Part shown: positions 6,491-42,485 of the stretch, piece after piece | Position numbering within the stretch: position 1 is the stretch's first letter | How the letters are laid out: each line of letters opens with the position of its first letter | Origin: Lentimicrobiaceae bacterium | GTDB taxonomy: Bacteria; Bacteroidota; Bacteroidia; Bacteroidales; JAGNHN01 | DNA: 64,000 bases | Reading direction: 5' to 3' | Assembly: GCA_018001695.1 (NCBI GenBank) | Contig: JAGNHN010000005.1 | Location: 1-64,000 of the forward strand | Translations under genes and position numbers: made by a program | Notes under the pieces: model-generated | What the model saw: only the letters and a program-made list of their open reading frames with translations | Database searches by the model: none | Told to the model about the DNA's origin: nothing

Positions 6491-7678
6491 ATGTCTTGTA
6501 TGAAAACAAGGAAACCCACCACCCACCTGAGCCGTCGCAGGTTCTTCCAGTTCGCCGCCCTGGGCAGTGTCGGCGCTGCTCTTATGCCTTCCTGGGCTGT
6601 CGGGGCAGCCACGGAAACGACGGATGAAAAGCCCGCTACCAATATTGCAGACGCACTGGCTTATCCGCGGACACCCGACTCCATGCCGGGCCGTTATCCC
6701 GGAAAAGTAGTGAAGGTGCATGATGAGCGATCGATTATCGACAATCAGATCCAGGAATCAGCCGCTTACGATATGATTGCCACAGCCATGCTGCAGCTCA
6801 CCGGGGCCCCGGATCTGAAAGCCGCCTGGCGGACCTTCGTAAGCCCGGATGACAGGATAGGACTCAAGGTCAACCCGATAGGCGCCAAGCTGCTCTCCAC
6901 CAGCCTGGAAGTGATACGCAGCGTGATCCGTCAACTAGAGGAGGCCGGCATCCCTCGGGACCATATCCTGATCTGGGACCGCCGTGAAACCCAGCTCTAC
7001 GAATGCGGCATTGATACTGCTTCCTTTCCAGGGATCACCATCAAAGGAACGGAATACCAGGACGAAGGTGGATCTTTTTACGATGCCGAAGGTCGTTTCC
7101 TGAGTGAACAGCGAATCGACAAGGACTGGTATTACTGGGCCGATGTGGAAGGTGAATACGATGCCTACACCCTGCCTTACATGGTCAATGGCGGCAAGTA
7201 TTCATATTTCAGCAGTATCGTCACAAAAGACCTGGACAAGATCATCAACCTCCCCATCCTCAAGAATGCCGGCTCTTCCGTGACTTTATGCATGAAGAAC
7301 CTGGCCTACGGTGCCATCACCAATACCGGCCGACTGCACAAACAGCTCTGGGGCGAGACAAGCGCACAGGTATGTGCCTTCCCTCCCCTGCGCGACAAGG
7401 TCGTTCTGAACATTGTCGATGGATTGCGTGGCTGCTATGACGGTGGACCGGGTGCCAATCCGCAGTTTTTTACCGATTATAAGACCATCCTGGCCGGTAG
7501 CGACCCTGTGGCTGTGGATAGAATCGGCTATGAGATGGTGGTAGCCAAGCGCATCCAGGAAGGGAAACAGGAAGCAGAAAAGCCTTCTTCCAGAAAATTT
7601 CTTGCACTCGCAGAAGAGTATGGCCTGGGAATTGCTGATATAAACAAGATTGACTTAAAAAGTATCGAGCAAGGATGA
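6491..7678 (+). CDS. Tat-exported DUF362 protein
   Basis: 395 residues. The N-terminus carries a twin-arginine signal, SRRRFFQFAALG, followed by a hydrophobic run and an A-V-G-A cleavage region near residue 37. The mature part matches the DUF362 fold by its pattern: D-R-I-G-L-K-V-N-P near residue 120, then a strand/loop series ending in a NILPILKN-type segment and a C-M-K-N-L-G-like CMKNLAYG. No ferredoxin cysteine cluster is seen, although some DUF362 proteins have one. Tat export suggests it folds with a cofactor in the cytoplasm before transport. The function is unknown. The next gene overlaps by 4 bases (ATGA), so the two act or are made together. ATG 6500 is an alternative start. Confidence 0.85.
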   Translation: MSCMKTRKPTTHLSRRRFFQFAALGSVGAALMPSWAVGAATETTDEKPATNIADALAYPRTPDSMPGRYPGKVVKVHDERSIIDNQIQESAAYDMIATAMLQLTGAPDLKAAWRTFVSPDDRIGLKVNPIGAKLLSTSLEVIRSVIRQLEEAGIPRDHILIWDRRETQLYECGIDTASFPGITIKGTEYQDEGGSFYDAEGRFLSEQRIDKDWYYWADVEGEYDAYTLPYMVNGGKYSYFSSIVTKDLDKIINLPILKNAGSSVTLCMKNLAYGAITNTGRLHKQLWGETSAQVCAFPPLRDKVVLNIVDGLRGCYDGGPGANPQFFTDYKTILAGSDPVAVDRIGYEMVVAKRIQEGKQEAEKPSSRKFLALAEEYGLGIADINKIDLKSIEQG

Positions 7679-39597: not shown

Positions 39598-40797
39598 ATG
39601 ATGTCGTCAGCCCAAGAGTACACAGATTTTCTTTTTGCCGGCGGAGGACTGGCCGGACTGAGCCTTGCCTGTCAGATCGAAACGGCTTTCCCTTCACGCT
39701 TTCAGATGCTCGTTGCCGACAAGGAGCGCAAGAACAGCAATGACCGGACCTGGTGCTTCTGGGAAAAGGAGGATAATCCATATCAGGATGTCGTGTTGCG
39801 GCAATGGGACCACCTGAAGGTGGAAGGACCCGGCTGGCAGCGCATACTCGATATTCATCCCTATCAATATAAGATGATCAGATCACGGGATCTGTATGAC
39901 TATATCCATCGGAAACTCGAGGGAAAACCGAATATCCGTTTTGTATATGGAGATATTAGTGATCTGAAGGACCTGGCAGATGGCGCTCAACTTAAAATAG
40001 ATGGCGTACCCTACAGGTCAAGGTGGTTGTTTAATTCAGCAATCAGACCAACAGTTCCACTGAATCATCCAAGATCCCTGCTGCAGCATTTCAAGGGGTA
40101 TTTCCTTACCTCTGACAGGGATGTTTTTGATCCCGGAATACCGGTTTTTATGGATTTCAGGGTGGAGCAGGGAAACGATGTGCGCTTCGTCTATGTGATT
40201 CCCTTCAACAAGCGCAGAGCCCTGGCAGAGTATACGGTCTTTTCTCCAACGATCTGGTCTGAAGATGCTTATGATAACCAGTTGAGGCATTATCTGGAAA
40301 ACATTCTCAAAATAGGCTCCTATCATATTGAAGAAGAAGAGTTTGGAGTCATCCCTATGACCGATTACCCCTTTCCGTTCAGGACAGGGAAGCATATACT
40401 TCATACGGGAACAGCCGGTGGATTAACGAAGGCTTCCACTGGATATACCTTTGTCAATGTGATGAGGATGAACCAGCGTGTCGTCGAGGCCATCAGACTG
40501 GAGAATCAGCCCGTCCCGGCTTCCAGGCGCTGGCATTTCAGATACGGTCTGTATGACAGTATTCTACTGGATGTTTTATGTAAACACAGGTACAGCGGCC
40601 AGGACATTTTCAGACTTATGTTCAATAAAACAGCGCCCGAGAAGATCATGGCCTTTTTGGGAGAGGAAAGCCGCTTTCCGGATGAGCTGAGGATGTTTGC
40701 CACCTTCCCCCAGCTCCCGTTCATTCGTGGTTTTCTGAATGTTGTGAATGCCCGTATGACCAGGTCAGTTCATTCTGTTTTTTCCCGTTCCGGTTGA
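39598..40797 (+). CDS. crtY: Lycopene cyclase, CrtY type
   Basis: 399 residues. The N-terminal FLFAGGGLAGLSLAC is the dinucleotide-binding motif; NDRTWCFWEKED is the cyclase signature, and GGLTKASTGYTF the conserved C-terminal block. CrtY makes beta-ionone rings at the end of lycopene; in the presence of CruF/CrtD it should act on one end only, giving a monocyclic product. ATG 39598 or 39601 are both possible. It closes the operon, and its 3' end overlaps the convergent RHH gene by 28 bases. Confidence 0.88.
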   Translation: MMSSAQEYTDFLFAGGGLAGLSLACQIETAFPSRFQMLVADKERKNSNDRTWCFWEKEDNPYQDVVLRQWDHLKVEGPGWQRILDIHPYQYKMIRSRDLYDYIHRKLEGKPNIRFVYGDISDLKDLADGAQLKIDGVPYRSRWLFNSAIRPTVPLNHPRSLLQHFKGYFLTSDRDVFDPGIPVFMDFRVEQGNDVRFVYVIPFNKRRALAEYTVFSPTIWSEDAYDNQLRHYLENILKIGSYHIEEEEFGVIPMTDYPFPFRTGKHILHTGTAGGLTKASTGYTFVNVMRMNQRVVEAIRLENQPVPASRRWHFRYGLYDSILLDVLCKHRYSGQDIFRLMFNKTAPEKIMAFLGEESRFPDELRMFATFPQLPFIRGFLNVVNARMTRSVHSVFSRSG

Positions 40798-40961
40798 GTA
40801 GGCGCCTGGCTCCTGGGTGAACGTCCTGCTTCTTTCAAGGCCCTTGCGATGATCCATTCAAGCTGGCCATTGACACTCCTGAATTCATCCGCAGCCCATT
40901 TCTCCACAGCCGCCAGCATTGCAGGATCCATCCTCAGTGCAAATGGTGTCTTTCTGGCCAT
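40770..40961 (-). CDS. Ribbon-helix-helix (Arc-like) DNA-binding protein
   Basis: 63 residues: a short beta strand (PFALRMDPAML), then two helices (AAVEKWAADEFRS; NGQLEWIIARALKEAG), the fold of Arc/MetJ-type dimers, and a basic/Pro-rich tail. It starts 1 base after the stop of the SPFH gene, so the two form one unit. SPFH genes are often followed by such an Arc-like gene. It is a likely autoregulator of the operator at 41815-41843. Its 3' end overlaps crtY convergently. Confidence 0.82.
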   Translation of the reverse strand: MARKTPFALRMDPAMLAAVEKWAADEFRSVNGQLEWIIARALKEAGRSPRSQAPTQPEREKTE

Positions 40962-40962
40962 C

Positions 40963-41814
40963 TCAGGTGTTTAACGTGCCGGTATTAATGACAGGCGATG
41001 CATCCTTATCTGAACACAACACAACCATCAGATTGCTGACCATGGCCGCCTTCTTCTCTTCGTCAAGTTCGATGATCTGCTTCCTGCTGAGCTGCTCCAG
41101 GGCAAGCTCCACCATCCCCACAGCGCCTTCCACGATTTTGATGCGCGCTGCCACAATGGCCGAGGCCTGCTGCCGCCTCAGCATCGCCCCGGCAATTTCC
41201 GAAGCATATGCCAGGTAACTGATCCGTGCCTCCATGACATGGATACCTGCAATGGAGAGTCGCTCTGAGAGCTCTGCTTCAAGTACATGATTTACTTCCT
41301 CCCCCCCAGATCGCAGCGTGATCTCATTGCCTTCATCATCAAAGTTATCATACGGATAATGCCCTGCGAGTTTTCGAATGGCTGCTTCGCTCTGAATATC
41401 AACAAAATGGGTAAACTCATCCACCTCAAAGGCAGCTTTGAAGGTGTCTTCCACACGCCAAACCAATACGATGCCTATCATGATGGGGTTCCCGATCTTA
41501 TCATTGACCTTGATAGGCTTGCTGTCCAGGTTACGCGCACGCAAAGAAATCTTCTTGCGGGAAAAGAAGGGATTAACCCAGAAGAAACCATTCTTCTTGA
41601 TCGTTCCTTTATAAGCACCAAATAGAACGAGAACGGCCGATTCATTAGGATTGACCACAACCAGTCCGCCGAGAAGGAAAAGCCCGATCAGGGGCAGGGG
41701 GATAAGCCACAGCAACTGCCAAATAAATACCCAGACAGAGGCAGCCAGGATGAGCAATGCAACAAGCAGGATGAGATACCCTGAAATCGGTGTGTAGGTG
41801 GTTTCTGTTTTCAT
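40963..41814 (-). CDS. SPFH domain membrane protein (stomatin/flotillin/HflK family)
   Basis: 283 residues. Two membrane segments at the N-terminus (about 10-55: LILLVALLILAAS; PLPLIGLFLLGGLVVV) are followed by an SPFH domain (NPNESAVLVLFGAYKGTIK; IMIGIVLVWRVEDTFKAAF) and a helical C-terminus rich in Ala/Glu that would form the oligomer cage. It organises membrane domains; no protease partner (HflC, NfeD) is next to it. It is co-transcribed with the RHH protein and has a -7 box 19 bases upstream. Confidence 0.88.
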   Translation of the reverse strand: MKTETTYTPISGYLILLVALLILAASVWVFIWQLLWLIPLPLIGLFLLGGLVVVNPNESAVLVLFGAYKGTIKKNGFFWVNPFFSRKKISLRARNLDSKPIKVNDKIGNPIMIGIVLVWRVEDTFKAAFEVDEFTHFVDIQSEAAIRKLAGHYPYDNFDDEGNEITLRSGGEEVNHVLEAELSERLSIAGIHVMEARISYLAYASEIAGAMLRRQQASAIVAARIKIVEGAVGMVELALEQLSRKQIIELDEEKKAAMVSNLMVVLCSDKDASPVINTGTLNT

Positions 41815-41843
41815 GATATTAAAATAATATCACAAAGATATTA
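41815..41843 (-). promoter_or_regulatory. Three-half-site operator over the SPFH/RHH promoter
   Basis: GATATTA (41815-41821), TAATATC (41825-41831) and GATATTA (41837-41843) alternate in orientation with 3- and 5-base spacers. All three are perfect matches to one another. They begin right at the SPFH start codon and cover the -7 box (41833-41840). The layout suits a dimeric repressor such as the RHH protein of the same operon. Confidence 0.6.
41833..41840 (-). promoter_or_regulatory. -7 box of the SPFH/RHH operon
   Basis: TATCTTTG on the minus strand, 19 bases before the SPFH ATG, embedded in the operator repeats. Confidence 0.55.
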
Positions 41844-41920
41844 TATTGAATCTGGCTTGTCAAGAAAAATCTTTGGATGAGGTGCATTTGAAAAACGCAA
41901 CTGCCCAACGGGCTTTTTTG

Positions 41921-41960: not shown

Positions 41961-42485
41961 ATGAAAAAGACCTTGTTGATTTACTGGCCGGCAGGCGGCA
42001 ACGTAGAGCGTGTATCCAAGCTCATCTCCAAACAAATGGAAAATCTTGATCTGAAAATGGTCACCGAGTTGACGCCTTCGACGCTGGCTGATTATGATCT
42101 GATCATTGCCGGGGGATCTACCGTCGGTGCTGAGATATGGGAAGAAGCCATGCAGAACGACCGCTGGGCCCCTTTTCTGCTGAAAATGAGGGAGAAAAGT
42201 GTTGACCTTAGCGGAAAATGTCTCGCCTTGTTCGGATTAGGAGATCAGGTGCTTTACCCTGAACACTTCGTTGACAGCATGGCCATATTGCGGGATGAAT
42301 TTTCCAGGTTTGGTGTTAAAATGGTCGGTAAATGGCCCGCCGAAGGTTACAAATTCACTTCTTCGGAAAGTCTGGAAGGATCCTATTTTATTGGGCTGGC
42401 CCTCGATGAGGACAATGAGCCGGAGAAGACAGCCACGCGCCTTGCTTCATGGCTAGAGCAGGTGAAGAAGGAAGCCGGGTTCTAA
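41961..42485 (+). CDS. Flavodoxin
   Basis: 174 residues with a flavodoxin-like fold: an N-terminal phosphate loop in YWPAGGNVERVS (in place of the classical GSTGNT), LIIAGGSTVGAEIW as the second FMN contact, and LFGLGDQVLYPEHF as the third, the usual 90s-loop. It should carry FMN and act as a low-potential electron carrier in the cytoplasm, for example under iron limitation. The altered phosphate loop makes the FMN affinity uncertain. It stands alone. Confidence 0.85.
   Translation: MKKTLLIYWPAGGNVERVSKLISKQMENLDLKMVTELTPSTLADYDLIIAGGSTVGAEIWEEAMQNDRWAPFLLKMREKSVDLSGKCLALFGLGDQVLYPEHFVDSMAILRDEFSRFGVKMVGKWPAEGYKFTSSESLEGSYFIGLALDEDNEPEKTATRLASWLEQVKKEAGF

Follow-up and report, generated by a model that had tools for sequence, protein, structure and literature searches.

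The Arc repressor of phage P22, a ribbon-helix-helix (RHH) protein (PF03869) encoded among phage lysogeny genes, regulates its own expression and binds DNA as dimers, at sites spaced by one turn. MetJ, also an RHH protein, controls the methionine regulon through met boxes, tandem 8-bp palindromes that occur in two or more copies and each bind one dimer. RHH toxin-antitoxin operons are likewise short and are controlled by their own RHH protein. The SPFH scaffolds, relatives of stomatin, flotillin, and prohibitin, are found across life; to our knowledge, little has been described of how bacteria control the level of such a scaffold. In Escherichia coli, the SPFH gene qmcA leads a two-gene unit whose second gene, ybbJ, encodes a membrane NfeD protein. 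Such SPFH/NfeD pairs are described as widespread in one paper (PMC8656257), in which the term ribbon-helix-helix appears only inside a reference title.

In the window (the whole 64,000-nucleotide stretch analyzed), an open reading frame for a 283-aa SPFH/Band 7 protein (40963..41814, minus strand) is followed, 1 nt past its stop codon, by one for a 63-aa Arc-like RHH protein (40770..40961, minus strand). The unit is thus led by an SPFH gene, as is qmcA-ybbJ, but its second gene encodes a DNA-binding rather than a membrane protein and it carries a conserved operator. No NfeD gene adjoins the window SPFH gene: the next gene is that for the RHH protein, and lycopene cyclase and flavodoxin genes flank the pair. 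The flavodoxin gene (41961-42485, plus strand) points away from the SPFH operon across a shared 146-bp intergenic region. In a Pfam search, the Band_7 domain of the SPFH protein scored above its cut-off (3.3e-22). The AF2 model contains two N-terminal transmembrane-type helices, the SPFH domain, a long C-terminal helix (residues 205-244), and a short helix (252-267), followed by a disordered tail (residues 270-283, pLDDT <50) that ends ...PVINTGTLNT. The nearest solved folds in Foldseek were human stomatin (1.2e-14), HflK/C, prohibitin, and QmcA-YbbJ (8z5g, E 3e-11).

That the second gene encodes an Arc-like RHH protein, as the original prediction proposed, was borne out by a profile of 37 relatives, which in an hmmsearch of the PDB matched pArc (1u9p, 3.9e-6), Arc (1arq, 4.9e-4), and chain G of 9pio, a 79-aa protein named Arc family DNA-binding protein (6.7e-4). 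The window protein itself fell below the gathering cut-off of Pfam Arc (17.4 bits vs 20.4), and the same family matched 36 of the 37 relatives when E values as high as 1 were allowed, the best being 1.3e-7. NCBIfam yielded no match to the window protein at E up to 0.001; with the limit relaxed to 0.1, a single match appeared, which scored below cut-off. In the profile matches, the FxLR strand, the RSVN turn, and the helix pattern of Arc are shared, and the invariant residues Phe7 and Arg10 align with the Phe and Arg of the strand; in Arc, Arg13 contacts DNA. Unlike Arc, the window protein has a membrane scaffold as its partner, and the Arc operator differs in sequence from that described below. 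In the AF2 monomer, residues 1-12 lack helix and helices span 13-26 and 30-44 (mean pLDDT 72); the N-terminal strand of RHH proteins forms only in the dimer. A fold search with this model gave no significant match (best E 1.5), and a second gave a best Z of 3.5, to a plant TCP domain, with Arc absent from the matches listed; as an obligate dimer was predicted here as a monomer, this absence excludes nothing.

Exact copies of the heptamer GATATTA lie over the SPFH promoter at 41815-41821 (plus), 41825-41831 (minus), and 41837-41843 (plus), precisely as originally reported. The whole window holds 13 copies against 5.97 expected, a count that was reached by 2 of 100 shuffles, and this one promoter has three of them inside 29 bp; further, this promoter is the only place in the 3.2-Mb genome with the exact inverted pair GATATTA-N2-6-TAATATC. 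Along the minus strand, TTGACA is followed by 17 bp, TATCTT/TATCTTTG, TGATATTA, TTT, and TAATATCA. TTGACA (41858..41863, minus), found as TTGAC in relatives, was assigned as the -35/-33 element, and TATCTT/TATCTTTG (41833..41840, minus) as the -7 box; TATCTTTG is presumably a Bacteroidota-type -7 box (TAnnTTTG). On the gene strand, the site reads as an 8-bp palindrome, TGATATCA, in tandem with 11-bp start-to-start spacing. Unit 1, TGATATTA (41825..41832, minus), has an aligned counterpart in relatives, and 11 bp from it unit 2, TAATATCA (41814..41821, minus), overlaps the SPFH start codon, its last A being the A of the ATG. A third in-phase unit, TAATATCT (41836..41843, minus), lies over the -7 box and is weakly conserved. 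The array can also be read as alternating inverted half-sites, the geometry first proposed, since every unit is itself palindromic; the heptamers stand, but the units conserved among relatives are tandem 8-bp palindromes in 11-bp phase, not alternating half-sites.

We compared 79 promoters, comprising 78 loci found by SPFH homology and the window, and obtained the position weight matrix TAT-nn-TTG-(C/T)(A/G)ATATCA-nnn-T(A/G)ATATCA, in which the TATnnTTG of the -7 box is conserved. The pattern RATATYANNNTRATATY was present in 67 of these promoters, as against a mean of 0.025 and a maximum of 1 in 200 shuffled sets, and no other copy was found across 460 kb of these loci. TTGAC stands 22-24 bp ahead of the -7 element in 53/79 promoters and three or four in-phase units occur in 24/79; the unit that overlaps the -7 box persists (≤2 mismatches) in only 22/79. 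Beyond the closest relatives, the units tend toward the perfect palindrome TGATATCA. Loci L083 (start outside the match) and L086 (too near a contig end) were omitted from the promoter counts; L001 and L100 (copies from the genome of the window) and L002-L019 (of which L015 has no SPFH match) were excluded from counting.

The pair of units in 11-bp phase was recovered in each of three samples: all 79 promoters of the SPFH-homology set (window included), all 39 of an independent draw across the phylum, and nine of ten in a plasmid collection that includes phyla beyond Bacteroidota. Together, 127 of 128 SPFH promoters with an RHH gene present or presumed carry the pair with at most 4 mismatches in 16 positions, although these are not 128 independent events, as they include five loci where the contig runs out too early for an RHH gene to be visible, as well as some close relatives. 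When the spacing was scanned in the same 128 promoters at ≤2 mismatches, 92 had 11 bp and none had 8-10 or 12-15 bp; 16 bp occurred in five, 22 bp (twice 11) in nine, and each of the other spacings in 0-4. In the phylum draw, an exact TGATATCA unit was present in 35/39 promoters and the pair with ≤3 mismatches in 39/39. The plasmid-collection operons with the site belong to Deinococcus, Nonomuraea, Qipengyuania, Bosea, and Acetoanaerobium. The Acetoanaerobium operator is a perfect TGATATCATTATGATATCA, and that of the GC-rich Nonomuraea is TGATATCACTTTGCTAGCA, whose unit 2 differs symmetrically from unit 1. Gene pair and operator thus occur together in five phyla (Bacteroidota, Deinococcota, Actinomycetota, Pseudomonadota, and Bacillota). 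The sole miss, a Rhizobium locus (L210), has the SPFH gene, the RHH gene, and the conserved SPFH tail discussed later, and no 11-bp pair (best 6 mismatches).

The original prediction had named the presence of such repeats before other SPFH-RHH pairs as a test, and the repeats were found there, in contrast to SPFH genes without an adjacent RHH gene, where the pair was seen in 0/6 (best 6-9 mismatches, shuffle p at least 0.46). These six controls, two Deinococcus plasmids, two Firmicute-like contigs with phage names, a Vibrio plasmid, and a Pseudomonas plasmid, represent about four lineages, and RHH absence was judged within the fetched stretch. The RHH-less SPFH proteins of D. radiophilus and D. 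proteolyticus are 62-64% identical to the SPFH protein of Deinococcus NW-56, which has both RHH gene and operator, and the RHH-linked proteins of Nonomuraea and Qipengyuania are no closer to it (61% and 58%). Records labelled as a Pseudomonas aeruginosa plasmid and as Listeria and Enterococcus phages (L215, L221, L222) carry near-identical or similar Firmicute-like SPFH genes, those of L215 and L222 being almost the same, and the three records look like misassigned bacterial DNA.

The linkage of the two genes is itself strongly conserved. Of 80 loci retrieved by SPFH similarity, 75 have an RHH gene after the SPFH gene, on its strand, and in the remaining five the contig ends 73-568 bp past the SPFH match. 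One or two genes (alpha/beta hydrolase, DUF6141-like, or unassigned) are inserted between SPFH and RHH in L022, L035, L044, L058, and L090, apparently placing them under the same predicted operator. The RHH gene was found in 43 of 198 drawn Bacteroidota genomes, and the loci of 40 were used, the genome of the window and two with weak RHH matches (G112, G224) being left out. An SPFH gene adjoins the RHH gene in 39 of the 40, although in L164 it is apparently truncated; the other, L185, has an RHH gene without an adjoining SPFH gene and, about 230 bp upstream of it, no more than a degenerate repeat. Conversely, among 80 genomes chosen from the 155 without RHH, an SPFH ortholog was absent from 79 (E up to 1e-10), and the single match was 30% identical. 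On a Thermus thermophilus plasmid (L206), the gene ahead of the RHH relative is that of an ABC transporter rather than an SPFH protein, and no TGATATCA site was found.

Among the sites listed with ≤1 mismatch in 30 RHH-containing genomes, 16 of 18 are SPFH promoters, and the predicted regulon looks like one operon; a wider regulon was not supported by these sites. In one genome (G000), a 1-mismatch site inside an open reading frame is closer to the consensus than the SPFH site, and a consensus-like site in another (G162, 570990) has no SPFH or RHH match nearby and no clear reading. The genome of the window has four other sites with ≤2 mismatches, all inside open reading frames. When RATATYANNNTRATATY was scanned against the 198 genomes it was present in 95; many of these lack RHH, so the pattern is too loose for genome-wide use.

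Taken from sequence comparison, it is highly probable that the repeats are the operator of an SPFH-RHH operon that is repressed by its own Arc-like RHH dimers. This agrees with the self-repressing operon originally envisaged: the putative operator overlaps both the -7 box and the start codon, where a repressor site would be expected, and its conservation over the operon's own promoter is that of an autoregulated RHH operon. RHH dimers, the product of the second gene, would bind side by side on TGATATCA-type subsites 11 bp, or one helical turn, apart; in the window, the dimer array would run from the end of the -7 box through the presumed start region to the SPFH start codon, and the bound dimers would block RNA polymerase and hold both genes down. 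As the dimer is two-fold symmetric and the unit palindromic, one dimer per unit, on one helix face, would be the natural reading by analogy with Arc and MetJ. The MetJ operator, too, is an array of 8-bp palindromes in two or more copies, but it repeats every 8 bp and serves a regulon, whereas the units here repeat every 11 bp and appear to serve a single operon. We infer both that the RHH protein is the binder and that its binding represses.

Were the site instead to belong to a different transcription factor, with the RHH protein acting elsewhere, an RHH-containing locus with an absent or poor operator, such as the Rhizobium one, would be readily explained. We consider this improbable: site and RHH gene co-occur across phyla, the RHH-less controls lack the site as well, the listed sites with ≤1 mismatch are almost private to the RHH-encoding operon, and 11-bp phasing, recalling the spacing of Arc, suits RHH dimers. 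Palindromic units would also let the tandem form a stem, and a hairpin in the mRNA leader near the start codon might control translation. An 8-bp stem is possible in only 8/79 promoters, however, with three of its eight pairs (8-26, 9-25, and 14-20) failing in at least half of the sequences, and the features conserved are direct-repeat identity and 11-bp phase; we therefore rejected the hairpin as very improbable.

A toxin-antitoxin type module, with the SPFH protein in the place of the toxin and the RHH protein as antitoxin and repressor, would account for the small RHH gene, the tight operon, and the autorepression layout, and some members (Qipengyuania) are annotated as HicB-family antitoxins. 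Its likelihood is nonetheless slight. The partner is a two-transmembrane SPFH scaffold without a toxin domain, and the RHH gene comes last in the operon, whereas antitoxin genes are more often first. Nor was a HicB identity supported: HicB gave no match to the window protein at E up to 1, and matched 7 of the 37 relatives weakly (best 0.019). Chance repetition is the least credible of these readings; a heptamer is a short sequence and this promoter is rich in A and T, but the RATATYANNNTRATATY shuffles, the spacing scan, and the presence of the site in GC-rich phyla all contradict it.

The original prediction described autorepression by RHH dimers with no known signal, and we likewise know of no corepressor for this repressor; the signal may nevertheless be not wholly obscure, as the conserved C-terminal tail of the SPFH protein is a candidate. 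When SPFH C-termini were compared up to the stop codon, the terminal pattern P-x-x-N-x-G-[TSN]-[LIV] was present in 132 of 133 RHH-linked proteins (81/81, 38/39, and 13/13), the miss being L164; the core of the tail is N-x-G-[TS]-L, with an extended form N-x-G-[TS]-L-[YHN]. In the window, it corresponds to the codons for VINTGTLNT (40966..40992, minus strand). The tail was seen in 0/6 RHH-less SPFH proteins, which end in NSGR, NSGR, NTGDVSS, NTGDMKDRK, NIDN, and TLPLS, though the correlation covers few lineages and the Vibrio and Pseudomonas proteins, being more distant, make weak controls. Within one genus, Deinococcus sp. NW-56 and QL22 have tail, RHH gene, and tandem TGATATCA units, and D. 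radiophilus and D. proteolyticus have none of the three. Since the tail is conserved, disordered, and lost together with the repressor, it may be a docking motif for the RHH protein, a sign that the repressor could dock on the SPFH scaffold encoded with it. Repression might be relieved if the tail titrated the repressor away. Much more tentatively, and as a possibility we regard as rather doubtful, the operon may be a pan-bacterial module in which the tails of the SPFH oligomer capture the RHH repressor at the membrane, or act as its corepressor, so that the scaffold reads its own assembly state; operon output would then track the amount or state of assembled scaffold.

Autorepression by an RHH protein is of a known kind; as far as we have seen, the novelty lies in the SPFH partner, in how deeply the operator is conserved, and in the tail. 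In the open-licence full-text literature, no account of an SPFH-RHH operon or of such an operator was found, although this does not prove that none exists. It is unusual, given that operators mostly drift within their family, that the predicted site of a dedicated repressor can still be recognized in lineages as far apart as AT-rich Bacteroidota and GC-rich Actinomycetota. The operator can serve as a sequence tag for finding SPFH-RHH operons, and the co-conserved tail gives a concrete, testable hypothesis for the missing signal. Similar arrays also occur in an IMG/VR phage contig (L220), in which four arrays of 3-5 TGATATCA units with an 11-bp period lie within 500 bp (6570-7060). The same contig carries a distant Arc-like RHH gene (1039-1263, E about 4e-7), as if this phage RHH protein used the same type of site.
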